A program made the translations under genes and the position numbers. The notes beneath the pieces were generated by a model. The model saw only the letters and a program-made list of their open reading frames with translations, was not told the DNA's origin and ran no database searches. A DNA stretch of 64,000 bases from Fibrobacter succinogenes (GTDB taxonomy: Bacteria; Fibrobacterota; Fibrobacteria; Fibrobacterales; Fibrobacteraceae), in the NCBI GenBank assembly GCA_902756345.1, contig CACVQR010000013.1, positions 1 through 64,000 on the forward strand, in the 5' to 3' direction. Shown one piece after another: positions 9,540-25,577 of this stretch. Each line of letters begins with the position of its first letter. Position 1 is the stretch's first letter.

Positions 9540-11687
9540 ATGCCTAAAAAATCTCTATATAATGTGCTAGCTGCAGCATCTATCGCCACGCTCCTTGCAA
9601 CGCAGGCTTTTGCAGCACCTCAATACCCATTCCCCCAGCAAATGACATATAAGTACGGCAACACCGCAACGTATGTCGACCCAAACGTCATCCAGACTCA
9701 TTTCAACGACTGGAAAAGTGCCTGGTACGAAGACATGGGCAACGGAACCGCACGAATCATCAGCCCCAACGATAGTACCGAAATGTCGGTGTCCGAAGGC
9801 ATTGCCTATGGCATGATGATCATGGTCTACATGTCGAGCACCCAGGCCGACCACCAAAGCGAATTTGACAAGCTGTGGGCCTACTGGAAAAAGTACGCCG
9901 GCGGTTCTGCCGCAGGCATGAACTGGCACGTGAACAACAAGAGCGGAAATGCCGACAACGGCTCTGCTTCTGACGCAGACATCGATGCCGCCTTCGCCTT
10001 GATCATGGCCTCCAAGCAGTGGAACAACGCCACCTACCTGAACGACGCCAAAACCCTTATCAGCTGGATGAAATCCAAGGACATGGAAAGCGACGGCCGC
10101 GTCAAGGCCGGCAGCAATTGGAACCCGGCATTGAACCCCAGCTACGTGATTCCCGCCGCATTCAAGCTCTTTGCCGACGTTACCGGAGATTCCTTCTGGG
10201 AAACCGCCGTCAGCACAAACCTCAAACACCTTTCGCAGTGCCAGAATGCAACCTCAGGCCTGATGCCCGACTGGTGCGATTGGAGCAGCCACAAGGCCGC
10301 CGATAATACGGGAGCCGCCGTTTCGGGCGGCAAGGGCGGATTCTTCGATGACGCCGCACGCACCCCCTGGCGCATGGCCATGGCCTACAACTGGTACGGA
10401 ATCAAGGAAGCAAAGCAGGTAAACGACAAGATTGTCCCGTGGCTCGAAAAATCGACTTACGGCGACGCCAATATGATTTGGCCGGGCTACTCTCTTGACG
10501 GAGCAAGCTGCCCCTACGCCTTCTTTACCACATCTACCTATGTCGGGGGCCTCGGACTCGCCATGGGTTCGGCAGACGACCCCAAGAATTACCTGGAATC
10601 CGTCTACACGGTTCTTGCAAATTCCGAAGGCGCCAAGAAGGCCGGCGCCTACAAGGGCGAAAAGTACTACCCCGCCACGCTCAATATTCTGTACATGCTC
10701 TCCATGAGCGGCAACATGCCCAACCTATACGACATGACGGGGCTTACCAAGTACACCCTGACCAAGACCCGCATGCCAACCGCCCCGAACGCCACCTTGA
10801 TGCCGGTCAATTCCGGCGCAGCCGTATGGGGTTACGAAAACTGGGGCACCTACGCCGACAAGTACGGCGTCACGGTCATGGTTCCCGATTCCGGCAGCTC
10901 GGGCGTTTACAAGATGGCCGATGGCAGATACATCGTGAGCGCCGAAATGCGAATCGCCTCCGAACCCACCTACGAAGCCGGTGCCGACTTGATTTACCCC
11001 TTTGCAGGGGTCGCCCTTTCTTTCGACAAGCAGGACGGTTACTACGACCTTTCCGACCTTGCCGCCATCAGGCTCACCTACACGAGCCAGGGCGTTATCC
11101 GCTTGGCCATTTTGGACCAGCAGACCATCATTGACCAAAACGAAGGGGGCGAACCCGGGTTCTTCTTGCACCCGTCAGCCGAAGGCACGACCGTGAACAT
11201 CGGTGTCACCGAAAACGATTTCGGTTATAGCTACGAAGACTACCTGAAAGACAAGTTTGTAACGCCCTCCTGGGTAAGCGGCGGCGGAAACGACCGCGAT
11301 ATGGTCATGAAGGCTGTCCGCGGACTCAAATTCGAGCCCAAAATGAGCAAGGGCGGCTTCGGTGCCATCACCATTTACGCCCTCGAGCTCCTGGACGCCC
11401 AGGGTCAGGTGATTACCCGCCTTACGAACGGGAATTTCGACGCCATTAGCCCCAAACGTGCCGTAAACGCCCAAAATGCCCAAATTCAGGGCAAAAACAT
11501 CGTTTTCAGCAATATGCCGGGCAACGCCAAGCTCGAAATCTTCGACATGAACGGCAACAAAATCGCCTCGACGGGCCTCCAGAAATCCGGTTCCCTGGCT
11601 ATTGACCAGCTTGTTCACGCCAAGGGCAACTACATCGCCCAAATCAAGGGCGAAGGCATCCAAAAAAGTCTCCGTATTCGCAGGTAA
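9540..11687 (+). CDS. Secreted GH8 endoglucanase with CBM-like domain and sorting tail
   Basis: A 715-aa exported cellulase-type enzyme. The signal peptide ends at QAFAAP. The GH8 domain (residues about 27-400) has the proton donor motif VSEGIAYGM (Glu86), the signature ASDADIDAA and the base motif DDAARTPWR, all intact. Residues about 425-640 form a beta-rich module shared with the 3576 protein (PFAGVALSFD, DLSDLAAIRLTY), probably carbohydrate binding. The end (KLEIFDMNGNKIAS, then GNYIAQIKGEG) fits type IX sorting. No strong Shine-Dalgarno precedes the ATG. It is a full-catalysis paralogue of the 3576 protein. Confidence 0.92.
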   Translation: MPKKSLYNVLAAASIATLLATQAFAAPQYPFPQQMTYKYGNTATYVDPNVIQTHFNDWKSAWYEDMGNGTARIISPNDSTEMSVSEGIAYGMMIMVYMSSTQADHQSEFDKLWAYWKKYAGGSAAGMNWHVNNKSGNADNGSASDADIDAAFALIMASKQWNNATYLNDAKTLISWMKSKDMESDGRVKAGSNWNPALNPSYVIPAAFKLFADVTGDSFWETAVSTNLKHLSQCQNATSGLMPDWCDWSSHKAADNTGAAVSGGKGGFFDDAARTPWRMAMAYNWYGIKEAKQVNDKIVPWLEKSTYGDANMIWPGYSLDGASCPYAFFTTSTYVGGLGLAMGSADDPKNYLESVYTVLANSEGAKKAGAYKGEKYYPATLNILYMLSMSGNMPNLYDMTGLTKYTLTKTRMPTAPNATLMPVNSGAAVWGYENWGTYADKYGVTVMVPDSGSSGVYKMADGRYIVSAEMRIASEPTYEAGADLIYPFAGVALSFDKQDGYYDLSDLAAIRLTYTSQGVIRLAILDQQTIIDQNEGGEPGFFLHPSAEGTTVNIGVTENDFGYSYEDYLKDKFVTPSWVSGGGNDRDMVMKAVRGLKFEPKMSKGGFGAITIYALELLDAQGQVITRLTNGNFDAISPKRAVNAQNAQIQGKNIVFSNMPGNAKLEIFDMNGNKIASTGLQKSGSLAIDQLVHAKGNYIAQIKGEGIQKSLRIRR

Positions 11688-11782
11688 ACATTATTTTAAG
11701 GGTTAATAGCCCCAATTTCTCCGTAATTAAGGTATCTTTAACATCGATGGGAAAAAGTATGGGAATCTATAAGGGAAAACTC

Positions 11783-14011
11783 ATGAAAGCTACAAAATTA
11801 CTCCCCTGCCTGCTCGCCTTCGCAGCCATTCCTGCAATGGCCGCTGCAGCAAATGCAACCCCAAAACGTATTGGCCCCGTAAGCTACTACGGAGCACTTC
11901 ACACCAGTGGTGGTAAAATCATCGGTTCCAAGAACAACGAAGAAGCCGTGATCCGCGGCATGAGCCTTTTCTGGTCCGACGCTACAGGTATACCCTACTA
12001 CAACAAGAACGTCATTAGCTGGGCAGCCGAAAACCTGCCCATGGACGTTTTCCGTTTCGCCATGGGTATTAACTATTACGACAGCAATGGCGGTACTAGC
12101 AATGCCCTCGACAAGAGTTATTCCTATGCGGGCGCACCCGAAGGATACATGACCACGATCGACCAAATGGTGGAAGCCGCTATCGAAAACGACATCTACA
12201 TCATTCTCGACTGGCACAGCCACCGCGCCGACAGCGAACAAAGCATCGCCAAGGATTTCTTCAAGAAGATGGCGGAAAAGTACAAAGACGTTCCTAACGT
12301 CATTTACGAAATCTTTAACGAACCCGTGAACCAGGGCTGGAGCCAGATCCAGAGCTATGCCAATGCCGTTATCCCCGGTATTCGCGCAAGCACCGAAAAC
12401 CTGGTGCTGGTCGGCACCCCGAGCTGGTCTCAGATGACCCAGTACGGTGGCGTCAGCGGCACGAACGTGGGCTACGTGCTCCACTTCTATGCAGGCACCC
12501 ATGGTGTCGGAACCTACGGTGGACGCGCTACCCAGGCCAAGAGCTCCGGTAACGCCGTGTTCATTACCGAATGGGGCACCACCAATGCCGACGGTGCTGG
12601 CAGCCCGAGCAGCGGCAGCACCCAGGAATGGATGAGCTTCATGGACCAGAACAACATCAGTAACTGTAACTGGAGTCTGCGCGCTGTCGGTAGCCAATAC
12701 GCAACCGATGGCAAGCAAGAAACTTCAGCCATATTCGATGGAGGCTCCGACGGAGATTTGAACACTGTCGGCAAGCTCAACAGCGCAAGCTACAGTGCTT
12801 CTGGCAAGCTGGTTCAGCCGTACCTTGCAAAGCACAAACGCGACTGGGCAAGCATGCTAGCCAAAACCCTGAAGAGCGGTTCCTGCTCCTTTAACGCTAC
12901 GACGGTCAAGGAATCCGAATCTAGCGTTGCAAGCGCCTTCAAGTCCGGTTGTACTTACTCGTCCAGCAACGAAGGCGTCGTGACCTCTACCGGCGATGTC
13001 AAGAGCGCTGGTTACGTCATCATGACCGCTAACGACGGCTCTCAATCCGTGGTGCAGGTGACGGCTATTCCCAAGCAGACTATTCCGAACTTCCAGGATC
13101 TGTCTTGCAACTACAGTGGTACCTGCAACGTCAACCGCGCAATCTCTTACTCGAAGAAAGACGACAAGACCCTCAAGGAATGGATTCTGACAACGGAAAC
13201 CAAGACTCTTGAAGGATCCACCTTCACCCTCACCTCTCTCAACCCTGAAATCGTCACAGTCAAGAAGGCCTCCTGCGTTTCTTCTTCCTGCTCTAATACA
13301 CAGAGCGGCAAGCAGGTCACCATGTTCGAGTTCAAGGGCTTCGGTACGGCAAAGATTGTCGGAACCGCTCCGGCAGCCACCGGTTTTGGCGCTCTGAACG
13401 ACACCATCACGGTGACCTTCACCAAGGCTACCAACAAGATGACCAACAACTTCAAGAACACTACGCTCGCCTTCGGTGCAAGCGCACCCAAGTTGGTCCC
13501 GGACACCACGATGTACCACACCAAGGTTACCTACACCTTCAACGGCAAGGATTCCTCTCCTTACGTGACCAAGAGTGGTAACGGCCTTACCGCCGGCAAC
13601 CAGAACGCTATCGTGCGCATTACCGCTAACGCCCCAGAAGCAGACAACTACCAGGAATTCCACCAGAGCATTACGGTAATCGTGGGTGACAGCTCTCAGG
13701 CTGTGAACAAGGACGAATACTACAGCTCTGAACCGGTCGTCGTTCCGCCGGATACTGGCGTTGGCATTCTCAAGACGAACAAGGTCCTGCCTCTGCACGC
13801 CACTATCGCCAAGTCCATGCTGAGCGTAGGCTCTCGCGATGCTGGCGACATCAACGTGGACGTATTCTCGGTGACGGGCCAGAAGGTTCTCTCCAAGACC
13901 ATGCGCAACAACGCAACGATGTCTCTCGCCAATGTCCCGACCGGTTCCTACCTGATCGTGATTACCCAGGACATCAAGCAGCTGAACGTCAAGTGGAACA
14001 AGGCTGAATAA
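11783..14011 (+). CDS. Secreted GH5 cellulase with long beta-rich C-terminal region
   Basis: I choose the ATG at 11783 (742 aa), with AAGGG upstream, which starts a good signal peptide (MKATKLLPCLLAFAAIPAMA). The GH5 domain covers residues about 30-350: VIRGMSLFW, proton donor in YEIFNEP (Glu180) and nucleophile in ITEWG (Glu263), typical of the GH5 endoglucanase branch with bacterial EGZ-type enzymes. Residues about 360-660 are Thr/Ser-rich beta modules with Cys pairs. The C-terminus (INVDVFSVTGQKVLSK, then PTGSYLIVI) is sorting-type. A terminator follows. It probably acts on cellulose outside the cell together with the nearby GH8. Confidence 0.92.
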   Translation: MKATKLLPCLLAFAAIPAMAAAANATPKRIGPVSYYGALHTSGGKIIGSKNNEEAVIRGMSLFWSDATGIPYYNKNVISWAAENLPMDVFRFAMGINYYDSNGGTSNALDKSYSYAGAPEGYMTTIDQMVEAAIENDIYIILDWHSHRADSEQSIAKDFFKKMAEKYKDVPNVIYEIFNEPVNQGWSQIQSYANAVIPGIRASTENLVLVGTPSWSQMTQYGGVSGTNVGYVLHFYAGTHGVGTYGGRATQAKSSGNAVFITEWGTTNADGAGSPSSGSTQEWMSFMDQNNISNCNWSLRAVGSQYATDGKQETSAIFDGGSDGDLNTVGKLNSASYSASGKLVQPYLAKHKRDWASMLAKTLKSGSCSFNATTVKESESSVASAFKSGCTYSSSNEGVVTSTGDVKSAGYVIMTANDGSQSVVQVTAIPKQTIPNFQDLSCNYSGTCNVNRAISYSKKDDKTLKEWILTTETKTLEGSTFTLTSLNPEIVTVKKASCVSSSCSNTQSGKQVTMFEFKGFGTAKIVGTAPAATGFGALNDTITVTFTKATNKMTNNFKNTTLAFGASAPKLVPDTTMYHTKVTYTFNGKDSSPYVTKSGNGLTAGNQNAIVRITANAPEADNYQEFHQSITVIVGDSSQAVNKDEYYSSEPVVVPPDTGVGILKTNKVLPLHATIAKSMLSVGSRDAGDINVDVFSVTGQKVLSKTMRNNATMSLANVPTGSYLIVITQDIKQLNVKWNKAE

Positions 14012-14360: not shown

Positions 14361-14388
14361 AAAAAAAGACCCCGCTTCGAGCGAGGTC
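14361..14388 (-). terminator. Terminator of the six-gene barrel operon
   Basis: Stem GACCCCGCT with AGCGAGGTC (one mismatch), loop TCG, followed on the minus strand by seven T. It lies 29 bp after the GH18-like stop codon. Confidence 0.85.
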
Positions 14389-14416
14389 CTAAAGAACGTT
14401 CCCAGCGAACTAAGGA

Positions 14417-15472
14417 TTACTTCTTCTTAGCCTTGTAGTTGACTTCGGGGCGGAGTTGCAAGCCGATGGTCACGAGGAGCGAGACGATCGGTTCGTGATG
14501 GTCTTGGGAGAGGTCATAGACCGCAACACCGGCCATGCCTTCGCTCTTGACCTGTTCGGCCACTGCCTTCACAGAAGGGATGCCCATGAACACGATGGTT
14601 TCTGCATCGCTCACGGCCACTTCGGACTTGGAAGAAGCATCGAAGGTCACCTTGTATTCCGGAGAATCAAACTTGCCCATGAGTTCGGCGTAGGACACAT
14701 AACCTTCGTTACCGCTACCCGTACCCTGGTGAGAAGTTCCGAGGCCCTTGGCACCGCTCCAAGTCTTGCCATAAAGGAAGATTACAGGCACGAGCAAGTC
14801 GCCGTTCACGCCGGCGCCCTTCACTGCATCCAAGGTTTCTTCGACAGATTTAGCACTCTGGTTCGGGACCACGGAGGAATTGTCTTCGGTCATCTGGTCG
14901 GCCATGAACACGTCCACGTAAGCGAGGCGGTTCAGAGCGTCTGCCTTGTAGGCATCCATGCCGGCAGCCGGATAAATCACGGCGGTCACCGTAGAGCCCG
15001 AAAGGCCATCAACCAAGGCATTCAGCAACTTGGCGTAATCTTCGGCATCTTCTGCCGTGAGGTTCTGCCAGTCCACTTCCACGCCGTCGCCGCCGTTTGT
15101 AGAAAGCCAGCTAGAGACATTCGAAACGAAAGTCGGCAAAAGTTCTTCGGAAGAAGCGATAGCCTTCAAGTTGCCTTCGTTTTCGATACCGCCCACGGAG
15201 ACAATCAACTTCACGTTGTTGTCTTTGGACATCTGCACAAGCGTCTTGAAGTTTTCGGCGTCGTTTTCGTCAGCAAAGGCGACCGAGCCATCTTCACCGG
15301 CTGCGAGGCCGACATAGTGAATGTCGGTCACAAAGTTGTAGCGGATATCCTTCGGATAGAACTGAGAATACTGGCTCCAGTAAGGGTAGAATCCAACCAC
15401 CTTGTCGGCGGCAGCCTGGGCAGTAACCGCAGCTCCAAGAGCAAAAGTCAAAAGAATCGATTTAATGTTCAT
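14417..15472 (-). CDS. GH18-like secreted protein with catalytic Glu changed to Gln
   Basis: A 351-aa exported protein (signal MNIKSILLTFALGAAVTAQA) with a GH18 TIM-barrel pattern: VVGFYPYWSQY at the start, KLIVSVGG in strand 3 and FMADQM in strand 6. The family's active-site motif DG-x-D-x-D-x-E reads D129-G-V-E-V-D134-W-Q136, so the proton donor Glu is Gln (codon CAG). Loss of this residue normally abolishes chitinase activity, as in chitinase-like lectins. It is the last gene of a six-gene operon with three outer-membrane barrels; a glycan-binding role is the likeliest reading. It has no sorting tail; the end is Lys-rich. Confidence 0.85.
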   Translation of the reverse strand: MNIKSILLTFALGAAVTAQAAADKVVGFYPYWSQYSQFYPKDIRYNFVTDIHYVGLAAGEDGSVAFADENDAENFKTLVQMSKDNNVKLIVSVGGIENEGNLKAIASSEELLPTFVSNVSSWLSTNGGDGVEVDWQNLTAEDAEDYAKLLNALVDGLSGSTVTAVIYPAAGMDAYKADALNRLAYVDVFMADQMTEDNSSVVPNQSAKSVEETLDAVKGAGVNGDLLVPVIFLYGKTWSGAKGLGTSHQGTGSGNEGYVSYAELMGKFDSPEYKVTFDASSKSEVAVSDAETIVFMGIPSVKAVAEQVKSEGMAGVAVYDLSQDHHEPIVSLLVTIGLQLRPEVNYKAKKK

Positions 15473-15486
15473 AATTTCACCTCGCC

Positions 15487-16422
15487 CTAGTTAATTTCAC
15501 GGATCTGACCATTGTCGTCGCAGTAAAGCTTGGTTGCCGGATAAACCTCGGTTTTCACCGGGTTGGCCTTTTCAGCTTCGGTACAGGCGCGATAAGCCCA
15601 GCCATGAGCCTTACCGAACATGACGTACTGGTAAGAAATGGCGAACGTATCGATGGCAACACTCTGCAGCATCGTCAAGTCATCGTCAACACCGTAGAAG
15701 TTCAACTGGTTCAAAACCTTCATGTGTGCGGTGGAAATCGCACCTGCAGTCGGCACCGAGATGGTGTCCATCTTCAAGGTATCCGTTTCAGCCTTGGTAC
15801 CCTTTTTATTGAAGCTCATCTTTTCGGTGATTTCAATATCCACAGTATCAGAGCAAGCGGTCTTGTCGCATGTCTTGTAGCCATGAACTGCCGTAATGGT
15901 CGTGCCATCTTCTGCATAGTCGATCTTACCGGTTACAGCACCCTTCTTTACGCCAAAGTAAACAAGGGTTACAACAGGGGCCGCAGCGTCGGTAGAGTCG
16001 TCAATCGCAAGTATCAAGGTGTCCCTTTTCGTTTCGCTTGCGAAAACGGAATCCTTAGTGCCACCGGCCCAGTCCTTTTCCCAGTCAGCTTCGGTAAAGC
16101 CGCCAAGCTGGGTAGAGACCATGATCGTGTGGAGCATTTCCGTATTGTCGGCATACTTGGCAACGTCAGCTTCCTTTGTAGAATCAAAAACAGCCTGAGT
16201 GCCATTTGCCTTGGCGGCATCAGCAAGTTTCGAATTGTAGCTTGCCACAAAATCCTTAATCTGGACACGGACCAATTCAGGGTGCAGCTGAATGTAAGCA
16301 GCATCGCTGAAATCTGCGGGGAAGTTTCCGGCCAACGCCTCTTCGTCGTCAACATCCATGGAGGAGCAGCCGATAAGAGCAGAGGCAACCGCAGCAGAGA
16401 ATAAAAGCTTAAAATTTTTCAT
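15487..16422 (-). CDS. Hypothetical lipoprotein of the barrel operon, 311 aa
   Basis: A lipoprotein with signal and lipobox ALIGC (Cys19) and ribosome site GAGGTG. The mature part is acidic and beta-rich with several Cys (CDKTACSD, YRACTEAE, KLYCDD) that could pair outside the cytoplasm. I do not recognise the family. It lies 14 nt before the GH18-like gene and 10 nt after the third barrel, so all are surely cotranscribed. It could be the periplasmic or surface partner of the barrels. Confidence 0.75.
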   Translation of the reverse strand: MKNFKLLFSAAVASALIGCSSMDVDDEEALAGNFPADFSDAAYIQLHPELVRVQIKDFVASYNSKLADAAKANGTQAVFDSTKEADVAKYADNTEMLHTIMVSTQLGGFTEADWEKDWAGGTKDSVFASETKRDTLILAIDDSTDAAAPVVTLVYFGVKKGAVTGKIDYAEDGTTITAVHGYKTCDKTACSDTVDIEITEKMSFNKKGTKAETDTLKMDTISVPTAGAISTAHMKVLNQLNFYGVDDDLTMLQSVAIDTFAISYQYVMFGKAHGWAYRACTEAEKANPVKTEVYPATKLYCDDNGQIREIN

Positions 16423-16432
16423 TGCACACCTC

Positions 16433-18583
16433 TTAGAAGTTCACCGTCACGTCGGCGATGATAACGTTCTTGTCGATAGAAAGTTCTTGATTAGCAGGAG
16501 CGCCGGTAGCAAGGTCGATCGTCAGGAACGTCACCTTGTCCGTCAGCAAACCGTACTGGACAGAAAGGTAGGAGTTCGGAGCGATCTTGACTCGAGGACC
16601 AGCCAGGAGCAAGGATTCTTCGGCCTTGTTGATTAAGGCGGAACCGGACACCGGGTAAGCGATGCCGAATTCGCGAGTAGACATCTGGTAACCGGCTAGG
16701 AGAGCGAGAGGACCAACGACATCTACGTTCAAGCCGGCCATGATGCGGTCGTTCTTACGCTGGAAACCCTTGTCTTCTTCGCTGTGGTCGTAGGAGCCCT
16801 GGACCTTGATTTTGCGATCGAGACCCGCAATGCGGCCGACATCCACGCCGAGGCCTGCGCCATAACGCGTGTACTTGATTTCTTCGACATCGGAAGAGAC
16901 AGTCGAAATCATGCCGAAGATCGCATTCAGTTCAACTGCGCTGTTCCAGTTGAGGTCGACATTGACATTCAAACCCTTGCGGTCGGGAGTTGCAACACCC
17001 ATAGGCAGGGACATGTCATTTGCCGGATCCATCAGGAACAAGGCCTTGTTCTGGTCAGCAAGTTCAAGACGCTTCAGGACATCGGCATTGTAGCCGTTGC
17101 GATAGAAGTGGGCGCTCTTGTAGTTGTTGAACAGGCGAGAGTACATGTTGTTGGATTCCGCATCGTCGGTCAAGGCGTTCTTGGAATAAGACGTCATGAG
17201 GTTCGTTGCGTTGAGCGGATTGGAATTGTACACGGCCAGGTACATGTTTTCGAGGCTAGCCATGCCGAATTCATCAACCAGGCTAGTGTAGTTGGCGTCC
17301 TTGAACAGGGCATTAGCATTCAGCACCGAGGTGCCGCCACGGTATACCGGGCTAGAAGCCATTTCGCTCCAGAACTTTTCATCGTTCTGCAAGTACATCA
17401 CCTTGATGGAACCTTCGATACCAGCAATATCCAGGTTCACGAACGGTTCCACATAGAAGGCCATTCCGTCGTCCTTGAAAATTTCTTCTTCATGGACTTC
17501 TTCCTGCTTGGTGCTTTCAGAAACCTTGATGTAAATGAAGGACGTATCCATCGGGTTCGTGATAGCCGGGTCCATCTTGCTGGTGAATTCGGTAAGAGCG
17601 TATTCCTGCTTCTTGTAGTCCCTGACGTAGTCGCGGTCAACGCTCCACCAGCTCTTGGCAAGTTCGCCGTTCAAGCCGAAGGAAACCGGAAGATTCGAGA
17701 GCAGTTCCTTGGAATCAAAACCGATTTCAGCAGAAACCACTGCGTTGTCTTCGTAGTACACGGTGTCGGACTTAGCGATAGCGCGGGAGCGACGGCTCTT
17801 TTCGCGGTCAAACACATCGGTGTAGTTCACGCCCAAGTGTGCGCCAAAGGCGTCGGCACCGAGACGCAGGCCGTAGAAGTAGCGGTCAGAGAAATCGAAG
17901 TCGAAGAACACCTGGTCATACTTCTTGGCAGTGTTGCGCATACGGGCACCCGTTGCCTGAGCATGAATATCGCTGAAGGGGCCGATATTGCCGCTATGGA
18001 AGTCGGCGTTCAAGCCCTGCATCAGGCGGTTGCTCGTGGTATCGAGGTTACGCATGGCCAAAGCTTCGACTCGCTTCTGGGCAAAGATTTCGGGTTCCTG
18101 GAGCAGTTTCTGCTGCGGAGTGTACAAGGTGTAGGGAGTAAAGCCTACGCGCATGTAACCCAGGTTGAAATCCAGGTGCTTGTTCAAGATAGAGCCATCG
18201 TAGCTGAACCAGTGGCCAATCACCGGATTGTTGTTTTCGTCAAAAGCGTTCTGCCAATCCTTGTGCAGGCGGAGTTCCAAGTGGATCTGGGTTTCAGAGC
18301 TCGGACGTGCCGTGAGCACCAGGTTAGCGTCTGTATAAGCCTGGTTTTCCTGAGTCGGAGAATCATCGCTGAACTGGTCGGACTTGGCCATGGAGGTAAG
18401 GCCACCAGCCTTGATGTTTCCGTTGAGTTTAAGTCCCAAAACTGCGGCGTTCAGAGAGTCAAGCTTCTGCAGCAAAGAAGTCTGCTGGGCTTCCACGCTC
18501 TCGCCTTCGGCAAAGGCCGTTGCAGCAGAGAAGAGGATTGCGGAAGTAAGACCGAAAGCGGAAATTTTCTTATTGAACATCAT
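16433..18583 (-). CDS. Outer-membrane beta-barrel protein, operon copy 3
   Basis: A 716-aa protein with signal peptide (cleavage near AFAEG), a short helical N-terminal stretch (QQTSLLQKLDSLNAAVLG), then many amphipathic strands and a final TVNF. The terminal Phe is the usual signal for barrel assembly. The N-terminal layout (LQKLDSLNA, then a G-N/A-I-x-A strand) and motifs such as YTLYTPQQKLLQEPEIFAQKR also occur in the gene upstream (LTLFLPSLDIMYEPQIFARKR), so the two are diverged duplicates. The start ATG follows GGAGG. Putative porin or surface adhesin scaffold; substrate unknown. Confidence 0.82.
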   Translation of the reverse strand: MMFNKKISAFGLTSAILFSAATAFAEGESVEAQQTSLLQKLDSLNAAVLGLKLNGNIKAGGLTSMAKSDQFSDDSPTQENQAYTDANLVLTARPSSETQIHLELRLHKDWQNAFDENNNPVIGHWFSYDGSILNKHLDFNLGYMRVGFTPYTLYTPQQKLLQEPEIFAQKRVEALAMRNLDTTSNRLMQGLNADFHSGNIGPFSDIHAQATGARMRNTAKKYDQVFFDFDFSDRYFYGLRLGADAFGAHLGVNYTDVFDREKSRRSRAIAKSDTVYYEDNAVVSAEIGFDSKELLSNLPVSFGLNGELAKSWWSVDRDYVRDYKKQEYALTEFTSKMDPAITNPMDTSFIYIKVSESTKQEEVHEEEIFKDDGMAFYVEPFVNLDIAGIEGSIKVMYLQNDEKFWSEMASSPVYRGGTSVLNANALFKDANYTSLVDEFGMASLENMYLAVYNSNPLNATNLMTSYSKNALTDDAESNNMYSRLFNNYKSAHFYRNGYNADVLKRLELADQNKALFLMDPANDMSLPMGVATPDRKGLNVNVDLNWNSAVELNAIFGMISTVSSDVEEIKYTRYGAGLGVDVGRIAGLDRKIKVQGSYDHSEEDKGFQRKNDRIMAGLNVDVVGPLALLAGYQMSTREFGIAYPVSGSALINKAEESLLLAGPRVKIAPNSYLSVQYGLLTDKVTFLTIDLATGAPANQELSIDKNVIIADVTVNF

Positions 18584-18598
18584 ACTTACACCCTCCCA

Positions 18599-20860
18599 TT
18601 AAAATTCCACGTTAATGGAGGCTTCAAGGAGCATCTGCGAGAATTCATGCTTGAACATTCCAGTCGCATCCTTCTTTACATCGTAATAATCCGGCAGGTT
18701 CGGGGAGCCGTCGACGGCGCCGGCGACAAGGAGACCGGTATTGTATTCGTTTTCGACATTGATCATACCAAAGTTCACGGCGAGCCATGCGTTAGGAGCA
18801 ATGTTGTAGTCGAGGCCGACCATCCACTGCATCTGCGTCCCCTTCAGCAAGGGAGCATTCTGCGTAATCGCATTAGACGTATTCGTGAATTCCGTATTGA
18901 TCATCTGCACGCCGAGATTCACGCCGAGACGCGGCAGGTACTGCACGTAGAGGCCGCCGTTGATGAAGTCGGACTTTACTTCGGACTTCAGCTCAGCTGC
19001 GCCAAGCGCTGCCATGAAATCGGTTTCCAAGGAACGTTCGGAATGCTTGTAGGAACCGGAGATTTCAAGCGGCTTCGTGAAACCGATCATCTTGAAGATG
19101 TCGACCTTGGCGCCGCCGCCGAATTCCATGTAGTTTGCAGCCTTGTAGCTGATGGTCGAAACGTTGCCCATATGGTCGTCTTTCACAACCTTCAGGCCCT
19201 TGACCTGGTTGAACATGCTGAACATACCCTGGACTTCGGCAAAGTCCTTGAAATTGCCGGTCAAGGTAGCACGGGCACCCATACGGTTCGGAGTAGCAAG
19301 GCCGTTAGGCAAGGCAAGCTGGAGAGCCGGGTCATAGAGCGTTTCCATCAAAGCGAGCTGGTTGCGCGTGAAGACGTTGGTCGTCCAGGAATTCTTGTTG
19401 TAGTTAGCGATGCTGTAGCTTTCGACATCGGAACCGGCAAATGCGTTATCGTCGGTACCGAGAGTCGTTGCCACCGGGCTGAACTTCGGGTCGAAATTAT
19501 AGAGAGCGTCAAAGGAAGAATACAGCGGAGAGTTCACGCCGAACTTGACCGTCTGACCGTCCTTATCGGAGTTCTGGATGCGTTGGGCAAAGAATCGCGG
19601 AGACTGAGCGAGGTTATTGAACCAGTTGCTGTCGTTCATCACGAAGTCGACACCAAGGCGGGCACCGAAGGTTTCGTTCTTGTAGCCCACGTTCGCATTG
19701 ACCAAGAGAGCCGTACCGCTCAGGTCTTCGGTATGGAAGCTGTCGAGAGCGACATAAGGTTCTTGATCTTCGTTCAAGGCGAGTCCGACCAGGTTACCCA
19801 TTTCGTCGTACTGGAGAGCGTAAGAAGAGTCGGCCGTATAAACCTTGTCGTTGGACATCGCGAATTCGCCAGTCACATCGAGAATCAGGTTGTTGTTCCC
19901 CATAAGCGAGGCCACGTCGGCACCCAAGCGACCGCTTACGACCAAAGTCTTCTGCGGGTTGAGTTCGTAGGGGTTGATCGATTCGCGTTCATACGGGTTC
20001 GTGTAGTTATTTTTCGGATGACGGTAAGTGTAGGAATAGCTGTCTTCGTTATCGAAGATGTACATGGGAGTCACACCCACGTAGACATTGCGATTGACAG
20101 GCAGGAGTTCGAAGTTACCGGCCAAGAGGAACTTGTCCATGTTGGCTGCCTGGGAGGCGCCCCAGACATGTTCGTTAGGCATGATGTTGCCTTCGGCACC
20201 GCCGAGGTCCAAGACCGCGGTACGGTTGATACGGGCGAACAAACCTTCGGCACGGACCTGACCAAGGGCAAAACCGAGATCCTTACGGAACTGGAGGTTG
20301 ACACCCTGCAGGTTACGCTGGTTGCCTTCGATCATCTGTTCGTGTTCGGCCATGTAACGCTTGCGGGCAAAGATCTGCGGTTCGTACATGATATCGAGGC
20401 TCGGCAAGAACAACGTCAGCGGAGAGTACTGCTGGCGGAAATCACCGACGACCCAGTAGAAGGAATCATCCAGATTGCCTTCGACATTGAGCCATGCGAC
20501 CGAGACGGTCTTTGCGGCAGAAGCGAAGTATTCCTGCATGCCGGCGCCCAGGCGTACCATTGCGTTTGCACGCACATTTTCCCAGGGGCGGAAACCGAAG
20601 TTAATGTCAGCAGTCACGAATTCGTCTTTTTCGACACTCGGCATGTGGTTGAGACCCGAATAATCGTTGTCGGTTTCGAACCTGGACGACTGGGCAACCG
20701 CGCGAATGGCACCGGTGATTTCAAGACCGCGCTTGGCGTTGATGGAATCTACCTTGCTCTCGAGCAATTCCTGATTTTCTACAGCCGTAGCTGCAGAAGC
20801 GGCCATGGAGGCGGCAAGAATGGCGGCAAAAGTCTTTTTCATATTCATAATCTTTTTCAT
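18599..20860 (-). CDS. Outer-membrane beta-barrel protein, operon copy 2
   Basis: I choose the ATG at 20858-20860 (753 aa), 8 nt after AGGGGG; a GTG three codons earlier sits too close to that site. It has a signal peptide (MNMKKTFAAILAASMAASA), a short coil (NQELLESKVDSINAKRGLE) and a large beta-strand region, ending NVEF with a terminal Phe. The segment PSLDIMYEPQIFARKRYMAE matches the copy 3 protein. It sits 15 nt before copy 3 and about 15 nt after copy 1. An outer-membrane pore or adhesin role is inferred from architecture. Confidence 0.82.
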   Translation of the reverse strand: MKKIMNMKKTFAAILAASMAASAATAVENQELLESKVDSINAKRGLEITGAIRAVAQSSRFETDNDYSGLNHMPSVEKDEFVTADINFGFRPWENVRANAMVRLGAGMQEYFASAAKTVSVAWLNVEGNLDDSFYWVVGDFRQQYSPLTLFLPSLDIMYEPQIFARKRYMAEHEQMIEGNQRNLQGVNLQFRKDLGFALGQVRAEGLFARINRTAVLDLGGAEGNIMPNEHVWGASQAANMDKFLLAGNFELLPVNRNVYVGVTPMYIFDNEDSYSYTYRHPKNNYTNPYERESINPYELNPQKTLVVSGRLGADVASLMGNNNLILDVTGEFAMSNDKVYTADSSYALQYDEMGNLVGLALNEDQEPYVALDSFHTEDLSGTALLVNANVGYKNETFGARLGVDFVMNDSNWFNNLAQSPRFFAQRIQNSDKDGQTVKFGVNSPLYSSFDALYNFDPKFSPVATTLGTDDNAFAGSDVESYSIANYNKNSWTTNVFTRNQLALMETLYDPALQLALPNGLATPNRMGARATLTGNFKDFAEVQGMFSMFNQVKGLKVVKDDHMGNVSTISYKAANYMEFGGGAKVDIFKMIGFTKPLEISGSYKHSERSLETDFMAALGAAELKSEVKSDFINGGLYVQYLPRLGVNLGVQMINTEFTNTSNAITQNAPLLKGTQMQWMVGLDYNIAPNAWLAVNFGMINVENEYNTGLLVAGAVDGSPNLPDYYDVKKDATGMFKHEFSQMLLEASINVEF

Positions 20861-20875
20861 GTTCTGCACCCCCTA

Positions 20876-23431
20876 TTAGAACCAAGCCTTAGCTTCGGCA
20901 GAAATGTAGTGGGAATGCCAGTCATTAACCGAAATCGCTTCGTCGGAATGAGTCATCCACTTATAGCGAACGTGCAGACCAGCGCGATCGGCGAAGTCCC
21001 AGTCAAAGCCGATACCGATTGCGGTTTCGAGGTAGTTGATCGGGGCCTTTTCGTAGTACAGAGAAGTAAAGCTGTTGATCAGGCTAGAGGTCTTGGAAAT
21101 GTTCGGGGATACTTCCTTGGCCGTATAAGCGTTTTCGGCGCGGAAGGTTTCAAGACCGAGAACACCCACCATGTGGAAGGTCGGGGTCACAGCGACAGAC
21201 GGTTCAAAGTGACCGTAGAAGCTCCACAAGAGCATGTCCTTCTGGGATTCGCTGTAGGCAATCGGGGCGATCGTCGTAGAGAGACCGGAGATTGCGGCGT
21301 AGCCCGTCATCATGATCGTGCGGTCGGTACCGAACCAGCCACCGATATCATAGCCACCCATGAAGGAGAGGTAAGAAGACCACTTGGTGTGAGACGGAAC
21401 TTCACCCTTTTCGATCTGTTCGGTGCTTTCGTAGGCAACGAAAGATTCCCAGAGTTCCCAAGTTCCACCATAGAGACCGCCCTGCTGGCGATACTGCTTG
21501 ATACCCCTGTCGGAACCAACCATGGTACCGGTACGGGCCACGTAGGCAGCGCCATCGGCGTTACCGGAGTCAGCCACGAACAGAGGCTTGTGCTTGGTCC
21601 AGGAATTCGTGGATTCCCACATGTTACGACCGTTCAAGCGGTAGTTGAAGAAAATGACATCCTGACCGTCTTCGATCTGGCGATGCAAACCGTACTGCAA
21701 GTCAAAGTAGCCACGGTTGAAGGTCGGTTCCAACTTGAAGTTGAGGCCGGCCATGTTCGGGGTGTAGCGGAGAGAACCACCGTTCAGGTAGGCTTCGTCC
21801 TTACGCCAGCTGTTGAAGCGGGACGGGTTGCTCAAAGAATACGGAGAGTAGAAATCCTTCGGGAGGAAGATCGCTTCGACCGTCATGGGCCAGCCTTCGA
21901 CATACTTGGACTGGGCCTTCACGTAAACACCCACCTGCGGGGTATTCATCTTGGATTCGTTAGCATCCGGGAGGTAACCACTACTGACGTTTGCTTCGCT
22001 GTAGTTAGCGGCATCGGCAGTCTGGTAGAAGCGGACAGAGTCCGTCATGCTGAGGGCCACATCGGCCATCAAGTAGAGTTTCGGAGTAACGTTACCCTTG
22101 ACGTCGATAGAAGCGACATGCGTATTGAGGATCGTGGGGCCGACATCGGAGAACTTAATCCACTGGTTACGGAATTCGTCTTCGTAAATGATGTCGTCGT
22201 CAAAGATGACGCCCATGTAGTTCAAGCCGAGAGTCAGGTTGTCCGCAATTTTTTCCTTGGCGATACGGCCATGGTAAATGGAACCGCGGAAGTCGTAAGT
22301 ACCGGACATTTCAAGTTCGCCAGGCTGGCCACCGTACATGCGCAGACCGTCACGGGTACCGATGTCGGCGTCGGCCGGCTGGGACACGAGGAACTGGGCC
22401 TTCATGTTGAACGGGAGCTGATAGACGTTGGCAAACACACCACCGAAGCTGCGGTTGGTCCAGAATGCACGGCCACCTTCCTTGACGGGCTTGAACACCT
22501 TTTCCTTATAGTAGGTAGAAACAGTCTTTTCGTCTTCGAACAGTTCATACTGCCAAGCGAAGCGCGGGTTGGTTTCACGTTCCCACATAGTGAGCGGAGA
22601 AGCGTTTGCCCAGATAACACCACCGGCGGTCACGTAAGCGCCAAAGACGCCTGCACGAATGTCCACGCCGAAGTTCATTTCTTCGTTCACGGTCGTGGAG
22701 TAGTAGTCCGTGGAGTGGTCATACAGGACATGTTCGTCCTTGTTGCCAGGAACCTGAGTCGGGTGCTTGGCAAGGTTGTTGCCATAGAGACCGGACAGGT
22801 CGAACGGGAAGCTCATGTTCGTCCAGAGGGTCATGTACGAGTTCGGCATGGCCACAATGTTCATGTTGAGCACGGCGTCCACCGAGGTACGGGCCATGTC
22901 GTTCTTGGCCCACGGGCTAACATCGGAATAGTGGAAGTTCTTCAAGCGGAAGGCCAAGTAACCGGAAACCGCCATCGGAAGATCGTCCTTACCCATAATG
23001 GTCGATTCCATGTTGTTGGCAAGGGTATCGAGACCTTCTTCCACGTTGGCCATCTGCGTCTTGGAGTCAAGATGCGAGGAGGCGTTCACGACGAGCGGCT
23101 GGTAAGGAGCCTTTTCGGCCGGAGTCGCAAGGTCGCGAGCGGGGGCGGCTTCTTCAGCCACCGGTTCGGGCTCGTAAGCCGGTTCAGGTTCGGCGGCAGC
23201 TTCTTCGACAGGTTCTTCTGCCGGAGTTTCTTCAGCGGGTTCTTCGGCAGCAGATTCTTCTGCGGCCGGTTCAGATTCGGATGCTTCCGCAACAGATTCT
23301 TCGGAGCTTTCTTCAGCAGCGGGAGCGGCTTCTTCGAATTCTTCGGTAGAAGGCACTTCGTCGTCCATCTGGGCCAGGGCCAAAGACGTGCAGCAAAGCA
23401 GAGTCGTAAATAGTGTAGGTAATTTGCGCAT
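20876..23431 (-). CDS. Outer-membrane beta-barrel protein with acidic Ala/Glu/Pro N-terminal region, operon copy 1
   Basis: An 851-aa protein: signal peptide (TLLCCTSLALAQ), then about 80 residues of Glu/Ala/Pro/Ser repeats (EEPAEETPAEEP-like), then a barrel of alternating aromatic strands ending KAWF. The acidic region would be extended and periplasmic, perhaps spanning peptidoglycan or binding a partner. The barrel part has long, Asn/Trp-rich loops that could face glycans. It is the second gene of the operon, 9 nt after the jelly-roll gene, with ribosome site AGAGG. Confidence 0.82.
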   Translation of the reverse strand: MRKLPTLFTTLLCCTSLALAQMDDEVPSTEEFEEAAPAAEESSEESVAEASESEPAAEESAAEEPAEETPAEEPVEEAAAEPEPAYEPEPVAEEAAPARDLATPAEKAPYQPLVVNASSHLDSKTQMANVEEGLDTLANNMESTIMGKDDLPMAVSGYLAFRLKNFHYSDVSPWAKNDMARTSVDAVLNMNIVAMPNSYMTLWTNMSFPFDLSGLYGNNLAKHPTQVPGNKDEHVLYDHSTDYYSTTVNEEMNFGVDIRAGVFGAYVTAGGVIWANASPLTMWERETNPRFAWQYELFEDEKTVSTYYKEKVFKPVKEGGRAFWTNRSFGGVFANVYQLPFNMKAQFLVSQPADADIGTRDGLRMYGGQPGELEMSGTYDFRGSIYHGRIAKEKIADNLTLGLNYMGVIFDDDIIYEDEFRNQWIKFSDVGPTILNTHVASIDVKGNVTPKLYLMADVALSMTDSVRFYQTADAANYSEANVSSGYLPDANESKMNTPQVGVYVKAQSKYVEGWPMTVEAIFLPKDFYSPYSLSNPSRFNSWRKDEAYLNGGSLRYTPNMAGLNFKLEPTFNRGYFDLQYGLHRQIEDGQDVIFFNYRLNGRNMWESTNSWTKHKPLFVADSGNADGAAYVARTGTMVGSDRGIKQYRQQGGLYGGTWELWESFVAYESTEQIEKGEVPSHTKWSSYLSFMGGYDIGGWFGTDRTIMMTGYAAISGLSTTIAPIAYSESQKDMLLWSFYGHFEPSVAVTPTFHMVGVLGLETFRAENAYTAKEVSPNISKTSSLINSFTSLYYEKAPINYLETAIGIGFDWDFADRAGLHVRYKWMTHSDEAISVNDWHSHYISAEAKAWF

Positions 23432-23440
23432 AAAATCCTC

Positions 23441-24184
23441 TTAAATCTCGTTGCGGAACGGATAGTTCATCGGACCTTCGTAAGCCTTACCGTGCTTCTT
23501 GATCACGATATCGTCAATCCAGACCTTGAAGGACTCGTTTTCGTCTTTACGGACTTCGAGACGGAATCCCTTGAAGTTGCTCCAGCTAAACGGCAACATG
23601 ACTTCGCGGGTATTCTTGGCATCCCAGTACACACCAGTCGTACCGAACAACTTGAGGGGAATGCTAAAGTGTTTCCATTCCGTAGTGATTTCGCCAAGGC
23701 TCTTGGAACGGAGCTTCACCTGCAGGGATTCGCCACCGCTCTTCACGCCGTCATCAACGAGCACGAACAAGGCGTTTTCGCCGCCCTGGGCACCCTTGAT
23801 CCAGAATTCCAGGACACCTTCTTCGAAATACGGAGTCAAGTCGACAGAACCGGCAATACAAATAGCCACACCGGAATAGTCGCTTGCGATAAGTTCAATT
23901 TCCATGGAAAGGGCGCCTTCCATGGCATACTTGTCCGTAAGTACCGGTTCGGGGTTTTCACGCGGGTACTGGTAGGTATATCCACCACCACGCGGAATAG
24001 CTTCACGCATCACGACGGACACGACATCTTTGTCGGGTCGGAACGGCTTCGCCTGTTTAGTGACAAAACGGGACTGGTCGCGGTCGCGATAGTCGCTAAA
24101 ACCATAACCAGCAAAAGAGAAAGACGCTAAAAGGAGTACGCCCAAGGCGCACACCCAGCTTGCTTTATGCGGATTTGCTTTCAT
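23441..24184 (-). CDS. Secreted jelly-roll (CBM11/CIA30-like) protein, first gene of the barrel operon
   Basis: A 247-aa exported protein with signal peptide ending at SFAGYG. Residues about 85-235 have the strand order of a galactose-binding jelly roll: ALSMEIELIASDYSGVAI, GVLEFWIKGAQGG, LFVLVDDG, WKHFSIPL, FKGFRLEV and VWIDDIVI. The last pair is the typical closing strand of CBM11 and CIA30-like domains. No enzyme motif is seen. Its position at the head of an operon of three barrels, a lipoprotein and a pseudo-GH18 suggests a periplasmic or surface carbohydrate-binding subunit. Confidence 0.8.
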   Translation of the reverse strand: MKANPHKASWVCALGVLLLASFSFAGYGFSDYRDRDQSRFVTKQAKPFRPDKDVVSVVMREAIPRGGGYTYQYPRENPEPVLTDKYAMEGALSMEIELIASDYSGVAICIAGSVDLTPYFEEGVLEFWIKGAQGGENALFVLVDDGVKSGGESLQVKLRSKSLGEITTEWKHFSIPLKLFGTTGVYWDAKNTREVMLPFSWSNFKGFRLEVRKDENESFKVWIDDIVIKKHGKAYEGPMNYPFRNEI

Positions 24185-24422: not shown

Positions 24423-25577
24423 ATGAAATTTCCGCACTCCTATTCGTTAGCTCTTGCGCTCGCAGGCAGCATTCTAATTTCCGCCTGTTCTAGCGAAAGC
24501 AGCCACAAAGCCGTGGAGCCGACTCCAGAAGAACCTGAACACCAGGTAATCGCCGTTGACTATTCCAAAGGCCGCGCCATGAACAAGCGCCTCGGCAAGG
24601 GAATCAACTTGGGAAACTCCTGGGATTCTCAGGGCAACTCGCTGGATTGCAGCTGGGGCAACTGCATCGAAGACAATGATTTTGCCGTAATCAAGAAAAC
24701 GGGTTTCAACTCCGTCCGTCTCCCGGTTCGTTGGCAGCAGAATTCCGACTACAGCACGCATACCGTCGATCCCGAACGTCTTGAAGGCGTAAAAGAAGAT
24801 ATCAAGCTCGCCTTGGCGCAAGGCCTCGCTGTCGTCGTGAACTTCCACCACTACGTGGAATTGAACAACGCCGGCAACAAGTTCAGTTCTGATCCGGCTG
24901 CCTACAACGCCGAAAAGGAACATTTCTTGCAGTTGTGGGCACAAGTCGCAGCCGAGCTGGACGCTATCGCTCCGGACTCCATGCTTGTTTTCGAGATCCT
25001 GAACGAACCCACCATCGCAAACGCACAAATGGTGGACGAACTCCTGAACGACGCATACAAAGTAATTCGCGCTACGGCACCCGGAAAGACGATCATGTTC
25101 GAATCTTACCACGCCGCCAAATTTGCCGACTTGAGTATACTGCACTTGCCGCAAGACGGCAACATCATTTATTCCGGCCATTATTACGAACCCTTCAGCT
25201 ATAGCCACCAAGGGCACAGCTACCCCTGCAAGGGCGACGCCGCCTACGCCAACAACGCCATGTACGACCTTCAGACTTATGTCAAGCAGGCAACGGCTCT
25301 TTATCCGGACGTAAATGGCGGGCACATTCCCATGAACATGGGTGAATTCGGTATTTCGGGCGGTGGCGACTTCGCAAACTCCAGGGAATGCGACGCCGAC
25401 GGCGTTCTCCCGTCTGCAAGAATGAAGGCCCAGTGGGCAGAAAAGTCGATTGAAATTGCCGAAAGCCTGGACATGTCTTGGCACTACTGGGGCTTTACGA
25501 AGGTCGGCGGATTCGAAGCCTACGACCGCAATGAAGCCACCTGGTACGAAGGCTTCCCTGCAGCATTCGGACTTTAA
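24423..25577 (+). CDS. GH5 cellulase lipoprotein
   Basis: I choose the ATG at 24423 (384 aa), preceded by GAGG; the upstream in-frame TTG is unlikely. The lipobox is LISAC (Cys22), followed by a short Pro/Glu linker. The GH5 domain has the endoglucanase pattern: KGINLGNSWD, FNSVRLPVRW, NFHHYVELN, proton donor in FEILNEP (Glu195), HYYEPFSYSHQG and nucleophile in NMGEFG (Glu308). All catalytic positions are intact. It is a cell-anchored cellulase or related beta-glucanase. It is divergent from the barrel operon, sharing a 238-bp AT-rich spacer. Confidence 0.92.
   Translation: MKFPHSYSLALALAGSILISACSSESSHKAVEPTPEEPEHQVIAVDYSKGRAMNKRLGKGINLGNSWDSQGNSLDCSWGNCIEDNDFAVIKKTGFNSVRLPVRWQQNSDYSTHTVDPERLEGVKEDIKLALAQGLAVVVNFHHYVELNNAGNKFSSDPAAYNAEKEHFLQLWAQVAAELDAIAPDSMLVFEILNEPTIANAQMVDELLNDAYKVIRATAPGKTIMFESYHAAKFADLSILHLPQDGNIIYSGHYYEPFSYSHQGHSYPCKGDAAYANNAMYDLQTYVKQATALYPDVNGGHIPMNMGEFGISGGGDFANSRECDADGVLPSARMKAQWAEKSIEIAESLDMSWHYWGFTKVGGFEAYDRNEATWYEGFPAAFGL

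Follow-up and report, generated by a model that had tools for sequence, protein, structure and literature searches.

Fibrobacter succinogenes is a leading cellulose degrader of the rumen, and cellodextrins do not accumulate outside its cells. The mechanism of cellodextrin transport in strain S85 was called unknown by its authors (PMC6851124, PMC4668043). The ABC genes FSU_1687/1688 of S85 were raised on cellulose, and FSU_1687 was likened by the authors to known cellobiose importers; a MalA-like outer-membrane barrel was not found, and a TonB-dependent route was proposed from the raised TonB, ExbB and ExbD (PMC6851124). Three S85 products, Fisuc_1523 (GH5), Fisuc_1525 (CBM30) and Fisuc_1530 (GH18, "cellulose binding", CBP-9), are in the same family order as the locus described here (PMC3079729, PMC6851124). 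Full-text literature searches for Fisuc_1526-1529, FSU_2008, FSU_2009 and FSU_2010/2011 returned no paper naming these loci. The preliminary description of the locus had not recognised it as a described system. This should be narrowed, because three of the products were catalogued singly in S85, while no paper was found that deals with the barrels or with the six genes taken together.

The window, a stretch of 64,000 nt, is contig C13 of a 3.36-Mb genome whose close relatives are Fibrobacter. In the open reading frame list of the window, six frames lie on the minus strand between 14417 and 24184 (Table 1). They are transcribed in the order of a CBM30 protein (gA), three barrels (gB, gC and gD), a lipoprotein (gE) and a GH18 protein (gF). 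The gaps between them, in transcription order, are 9, 6, 15, 10 and 14 nt, the second being contingent on the GTG start picked for gC. Thus the leftward direction given in the preliminary description stood, and its gap range of 9-15 nt was corrected to 6-15 nt. At the operon end, where it placed a single terminator, there is a terminator-like hairpin, although over the whole scan such sites were no commoner in the window than in shuffled sequence. The six-gene order recurred in every Fibrobacteraceae genus examined, instead of being dispersed among relatives, which ruled out a chance arrangement. We predict from the gene arrangement that the six genes are a real operon.

Table 1. Features of the six-gene locus and its flanks, in window coordinates.
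Feature	Position	Strand	Remarks
gA, secreted CBM30 protein, 247 aa, first gene	23441..24184	-	Pfam CBM30 E 2.5e-17; probable orthologue of S85 Fisuc_1525/FSU_2007
gB (BRL1), outer-membrane barrel, phylum-wide core subunit	20876..23431	-	145/167 phylum genomes; C-terminal Phe in 64/65 relatives
gC (BRL2), outer-membrane barrel, phylum-wide core subunit	18599..20869	-	146/167 genomes; AF2 model
gD (BRL3), paralogue of BRL2	16433..18583	-	only in clade I (six-gene or chitin-like) loci
gE, fast-evolving lipoprotein	15487..16422	-	lipobox ...LIGC|SS; no family match
gF, pseudo-GH18, catalytic Glu replaced by Gln	14417..15472	-	PF00704 E 1.7e-30; probable orthologue of S85 CBP-9, Fisuc_1530/FSU_2012
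Terminator-like hairpin and T run, operon end	14366..14390	-	consensus match only; about 27 nt beyond the gF stop
Divergent GH5 cellulase lipoprotein	24423..25577	+	PF00150 E 3.9e-34; probable S85 Fisuc_1523/FSU_2005
Convergent GH5 cellulase, often-conserved neighbour	11747..14011	+	PF00150 E 8e-47
Flanking enzyme, putative GH8	9540..11687	+	labelled from sequence reading; relatives beside the operon in several genera

The S85 equivalences of Fisuc_1523, Fisuc_1525 and Fisuc_1530 were assigned via family and locus numbering. The GH5 lipoprotein was present where the preliminary description had it, divergent from the operon, and it kept this position in most Fibrobacteraceae loci with enough flank; cellulase activity was reported for Fisuc_1523 (PMC3079729). 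The convergent GH5 protein carries a weak T9SS-type C-terminal sorting signal, with Por_Secre_tail just below the curated cut-off.

The first product, a secreted protein, had been described as CBM-like, and this was borne out by the Pfam CBM30 profile, which gA matched at 63.8 bits against a cut-off of 27. Its match to the solved CBM30 structure 1wmx was weak (E 1.4e-5) and covered a short stretch (1wmx 75-142). The S85 counterpart of gA, proposed from family and gene order (PMC3079729, PMC4619616), was detected under both glucose and cellulose (PMC4619616), and Fisuc_1525 was found in the medium fraction only (PMC4668043).

At the other end of the operon, gF has a GH18 fold: it matched PF00704 at 107 bits, and its PDB matches were chitinases and chi-lectins. 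The DxxDxDxE catalytic motif was absent: gF reads DGVEVDWQ in place of the DGxDxDWE of active family members. As had been noticed in the preliminary description, the catalytic Glu is missing; it was absent from all 29 Fibrobacteraceae sequences checked, and retained in all sequences of a related locus in family f4. CBP-9, the probable S85 orthologue of gF, was reported to bind cellulose (PMC3079729, PMC6851124). The S85 counterpart is a highly and stably expressed CAZy gene, in a class shared with Cel51A (Fisuc_3111) and GH94 (Fisuc_2900) (PMC6204037). In the S85 envelope FSU_2012 was slightly down on cellulose (PMC6851124), and the abundance of Fisuc_1530 in the medium was about six-fold that in the outer membrane (PMC4668043). 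That a cellulose specialist has conserved an inactive chitinase suggests a change between chitin and cellulose in its ancestry.

The lipoprotein gE gave no match in profile searches of Pfam, NCBIfam and PDB, so it is as unrecognised as it was at first sight. Its lipobox Cys was invariant among 22 relatives, and a C-terminal motif, HGWAYRxC...YC, was conserved.

The three barrels are large, about 650-750 residues, with signal peptides judged by eye. All three in the window end in Phe, as do 158 of 160 barrels among relatives. Barrels 2 and 3 are paralogues with 28-30% identity in two stretches, the duplicates of the preliminary description, and their duplication is an old one, preceding Fibrobacteraceae. 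Profile comparison of barrels 1 and 2 showed a common part in the N-terminal segment only. No Pfam family over its cut-off was found in the window barrels, profile searches of BRL1 and BRL2 against PDB gave zero sequence matches, and the weak profile matches were to OMP_b-brl, with a single one to Porin_4. In these sequence searches the barrels were not matched to a known porin family. A search for the Plug domain (PF07715) found none in any of the barrels, and the only four TonB-plug proteins of the genome lie elsewhere, none of them being one of the barrels. An internal segment of gC, at about 417-527, was considered as a plug; its conservation was barely above that of the remainder (0.48 vs 0.40), which did not establish it as one.

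The AF2 model of gC was of low confidence (pLDDT 55, pTM 0.56) and showed many long antiparallel strands from about residue 25, after a short N-terminal helix. When this low-confidence model was compared with PDB, the listed top matches were outer-membrane barrels (Z 11-14). Usher, AlgE, Serratia chitoporin and TonB-receptor barrels were among the structural matches, the last through the barrel part only. Usher, AlgE and TonB-receptor barrels scored alike. Because the fold is generic and the model is of low confidence, these matches were used solely to read gC as an outer-membrane barrel, consistent with its strands and terminal Phe. The model of gB (pLDDT 42) was unusable, and no fold search was made with it. 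In the window, BRL1 has an acidic, low-complexity Glu/Ala/Pro-rich extension at its N-terminus (23140-23390), present in some Fibrobacter species and missing in others with otherwise similar proteins. An apparent disruption of BRL2 by stop codons in genus g4 disappeared on re-alignment, which showed zero internal stops.

Relatives of gC were present in 146, of gB in 145 and of CBM30 in 147 of 167 Fibrobacterota genomes; a scan for close relatives matched only Fibrobacter. BRL1 and BRL2 were neighbours with a constant order and a shared direction in all 120 genomes where both were placed. Outside Fibrobacteraceae (56 genomes), BRL2 and CBM30 occurred together in 37 and were jointly missing from 18, with one mismatch (Fisher p 9e-14, phylogeny ignored), and the joint absences were spread over several families. 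Barrel presence in these 56 genomes tracked CBM30 far more tightly than GH94. BRL1, BRL2 and CBM30 were jointly absent from G160-G163 (genus g15 of f4) and about 14 more genomes outside Fibrobacteraceae. The genomes that miss all three together may represent lineages not using cellulose.

Three layouts were derived from a homology-guided gene-order table. Layout (a), in Fibrobacteraceae, is CBM30-BRL1-BRL2-BRL3-lipoprotein-GH18. Layout (b), in f7 and f11, is SBP5-permease-permease-ATPase-ATPase-BRL1-BRL2-Cel51A type (CBM30/CBM11)-GH94-GH94. It forms a single co-directional run in some genomes (L069; also L112, whose read stretch includes one GH94); in variants the ABC genes are divergent, or GH94 is elsewhere or not on the stretch read. 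Layout (c), in f4, is CBM30-BRL1-BRL2-BRL3-GH20-GH18, and a second GH18 gene is divergent from it. The ABC genes of f8 come after the BRL1-BRL2 pair, and in nearly all of the other families the gene after the barrel pair encodes a CBM30 protein or Cel51A. The Cel51A-type protein of layout (b), which carries CBM30 and CBM11, is 49% identical over near full length to one protein of the window's genome. In f8 (L068 11966-13927) and f6 (L058 2072-3982), the protein after BRL2 has about 640-650 aa with CBM30 and CBM11 and without the enzyme part, so that by its sequence it would seem to serve binding alone.

Fibrobacter itself encodes the ABC importer, Cel51A and GH94 away from the operon. In the window's genome the ABC operon is on another contig (C1:385990 region), and in one Fibrobacteraceae locus (L018/L084) it lies just downstream of the six genes with an enolase in between. 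The enolase gene is directly upstream of the SBP5 ABC operon both in the window's genome (L105 9116-12647) and in G145 (L018, L084).

The BRL1 tree was split with 100/100 support into two clades, one holding Fibrobacteraceae, f2 and the GH20/GH18 locus of f4, the other the Cel51A-linked loci. The BRL2 tree, a quick one in which the f2, f5 and f6 rows are long branches, gave the same split, with BRL3 in the first clade only. By these trees, the Fibrobacteraceae operon is the sister of the chitin-like locus of f4. We infer that an ancestral chitin-like locus may have been re-purposed for cellulose, with GH18 retained as a binding protein. Positional orthology of GH18 between f4 and Fibrobacteraceae is not established, because the Fibrobacteraceae GH18 scored best with the divergent f4 GH18 and not with the GH18 that closes the f4 operon. 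Two f4 genomes, G158 (L055, L108) and G156 (L056, L109, L110), carry layout (c) together with a type-(b) BRL1-BRL2 pair without ABC genes. These two paralogous loci within single genomes offer a natural test of glycan specificity.

We consider, with a probability of about 0.55, that the operon is an outer-membrane capture and uptake machine for cello-oligosaccharides or cellulose chain ends. The CBM30 protein, the dead GH18 and the lipoprotein would hold cellulose chains or oligosaccharides at the cell surface, with gE proposed as a candidate surface docking part. BRL1 and BRL2, joined by BRL3 in the Fibrobacteraceae branch, would form large plug-less barrels that conduct sugars to the periplasm. 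A cellobiose-type SBP5-ABC importer and a GH94 phosphorylase, encoded elsewhere in the genome, would complete the use of the sugars, a step proposed because of gene context in other families and the S85 papers. We infer the conduction of sugar, the assembly into a single complex, the cello-oligosaccharide ligand and the binding roles of gA and gE, whereas for CBP-9 cellulose binding was reported. The uptake reading was favoured because the ABC importer, Cel51A and GH94 are linked to the same barrels in other families, and because BRL1 and BRL2 are always adjacent and BRL2 is co-inherited with CBM30. It also draws on the paralogous f4 locus, which swaps in GH20 and an intact GH18 where the Fibrobacteraceae GH18 has lost its Glu, and on S85, where the operon GH18, Cel51A and GH94 share the class of high and stable expression (PMC6204037) and the ABC genes rise on cellulose in the study that found no MalA-like barrel (PMC6851124). 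That the genome has only four TonB-plug proteins, none of them one of the barrels, points the same way. Weighing against uptake are the location of the ABC importer, Cel51A and GH94 elsewhere in Fibrobacter, the slight fall of FSU_2012 on cellulose (PMC6851124), the presence of Fisuc_1530 and Fisuc_1525 mainly in the medium (PMC4668043), and the weak AF2 models (pLDDT 42 and 55).

The main rival of the uptake reading, less probable but still to be taken seriously, is an adhesion or anchoring complex, in which closed barrels would anchor the CBM30 protein, the dead GH18 and the lipoprotein to grip cellulose while sugars enter elsewhere. The reported cellulose binding of CBP-9 (PMC3079729, PMC6851124) and the loss of GH18 activity suit such a complex. 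The barrels are also co-inherited far more closely with CBM30 than with GH94, a pattern that fits surface binding no less than uptake. Adhesion, however, does not account for f7 and f11, where the barrel genes share a run with the ABC importer and GH94 genes, nor does it say why an anchor should require two or three large barrels. That linkage to the ABC importer and GH94 is equally unexplained by a secretion or surface-display device, in which the barrels would carry Cel51A or the CBM30 protein through the outer membrane or display it there. Such a role is improbable to us, although one of these two proteins follows the barrel pair in nearly all other families and the fold matches include usher and AlgE barrels, because the fold match is unspecific and the six-gene layouts of f1 and f4 put CBM30 first and binding proteins or enzymes last. 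We find it similarly hard to favour general or chitin-oligosaccharide porins that were inherited from an ancestor living on chitin and do nothing special for growth on cellulose today. The sister relation to the f4 GH20/GH18 locus, with full BRL1 support, speaks for such porins, but the GH18 is dead, cellulases flank the operon in Fibrobacteraceae, and in S85 the counterpart of gF belongs to the CAZy genes with high expression (PMC6204037). The preliminary description had proposed an envelope machine that binds glycan without cutting it, perhaps for adhesion or oligosaccharide uptake. This interpretation is partly supported: its first part fits well with the CBM30 protein, the dead GH18 (CBP-9) and the barrels beside CBM30; of the two functions, the wider gene order favours uptake, and adhesion may be a second role of the machine.

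The operon is a good candidate for the outer-membrane step missing in S85, though its barrels have no plug. If the uptake reading is true, it fills a gap in how cellulose-eating rumen bacteria feed, and it supplies named, phylum-conserved candidates for the missing step, so that the question is now testable. More tentatively, the locus could encode a glycan importer that works without TonB, its two or three large barrels having no plug and its binding proteins including a dead chitinase; this would be a phylum-wide counterpart of Sus, re-specified between chitin and cellulose by swaps of partner genes.

Of the S85 proteins, Fisuc_1525 is the probable orthologue of gA, CBP-9/Fisuc_1530 that of gF, and Cel51A/Fisuc_3111 that of the third gene in the distant operons. 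They were catalogued individually, and no paper was found that links them to the barrels or treats them as one operon. The SBP5 cellobiose and cellodextrin ABC importers (Thermotoga, Pyrococcus Cbt, S85 FSU_1687/1688) are of the same transporter type as the one linked to BRL1-BRL2 in other families, but they act at the inner-membrane step and are located elsewhere in the window's genome. LamB, chitoporin and AlgE-type porins are likewise plug-less outer-membrane barrels, with Serratia chitoporin and AlgE among the structural matches; no sequence relation to them was found, and the Fibrobacterota barrels are larger, paired and linked to CBM30. The SusCD loci of Bacteroidota PULs resemble the locus in having a barrel beside a surface glycan-binding protein and matching enzymes, with loci that differ by glycan. 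In contrast to SusCD, the Fibrobacterota barrels come in twos or threes, have no Plug and match no TonB-receptor family, and no SusD-type partner was recognised, gE having no Pfam or PDB profile match. In other Fibrobacterota families, the barrel pair instead adjoins an SBP5 ABC importer and GH94.
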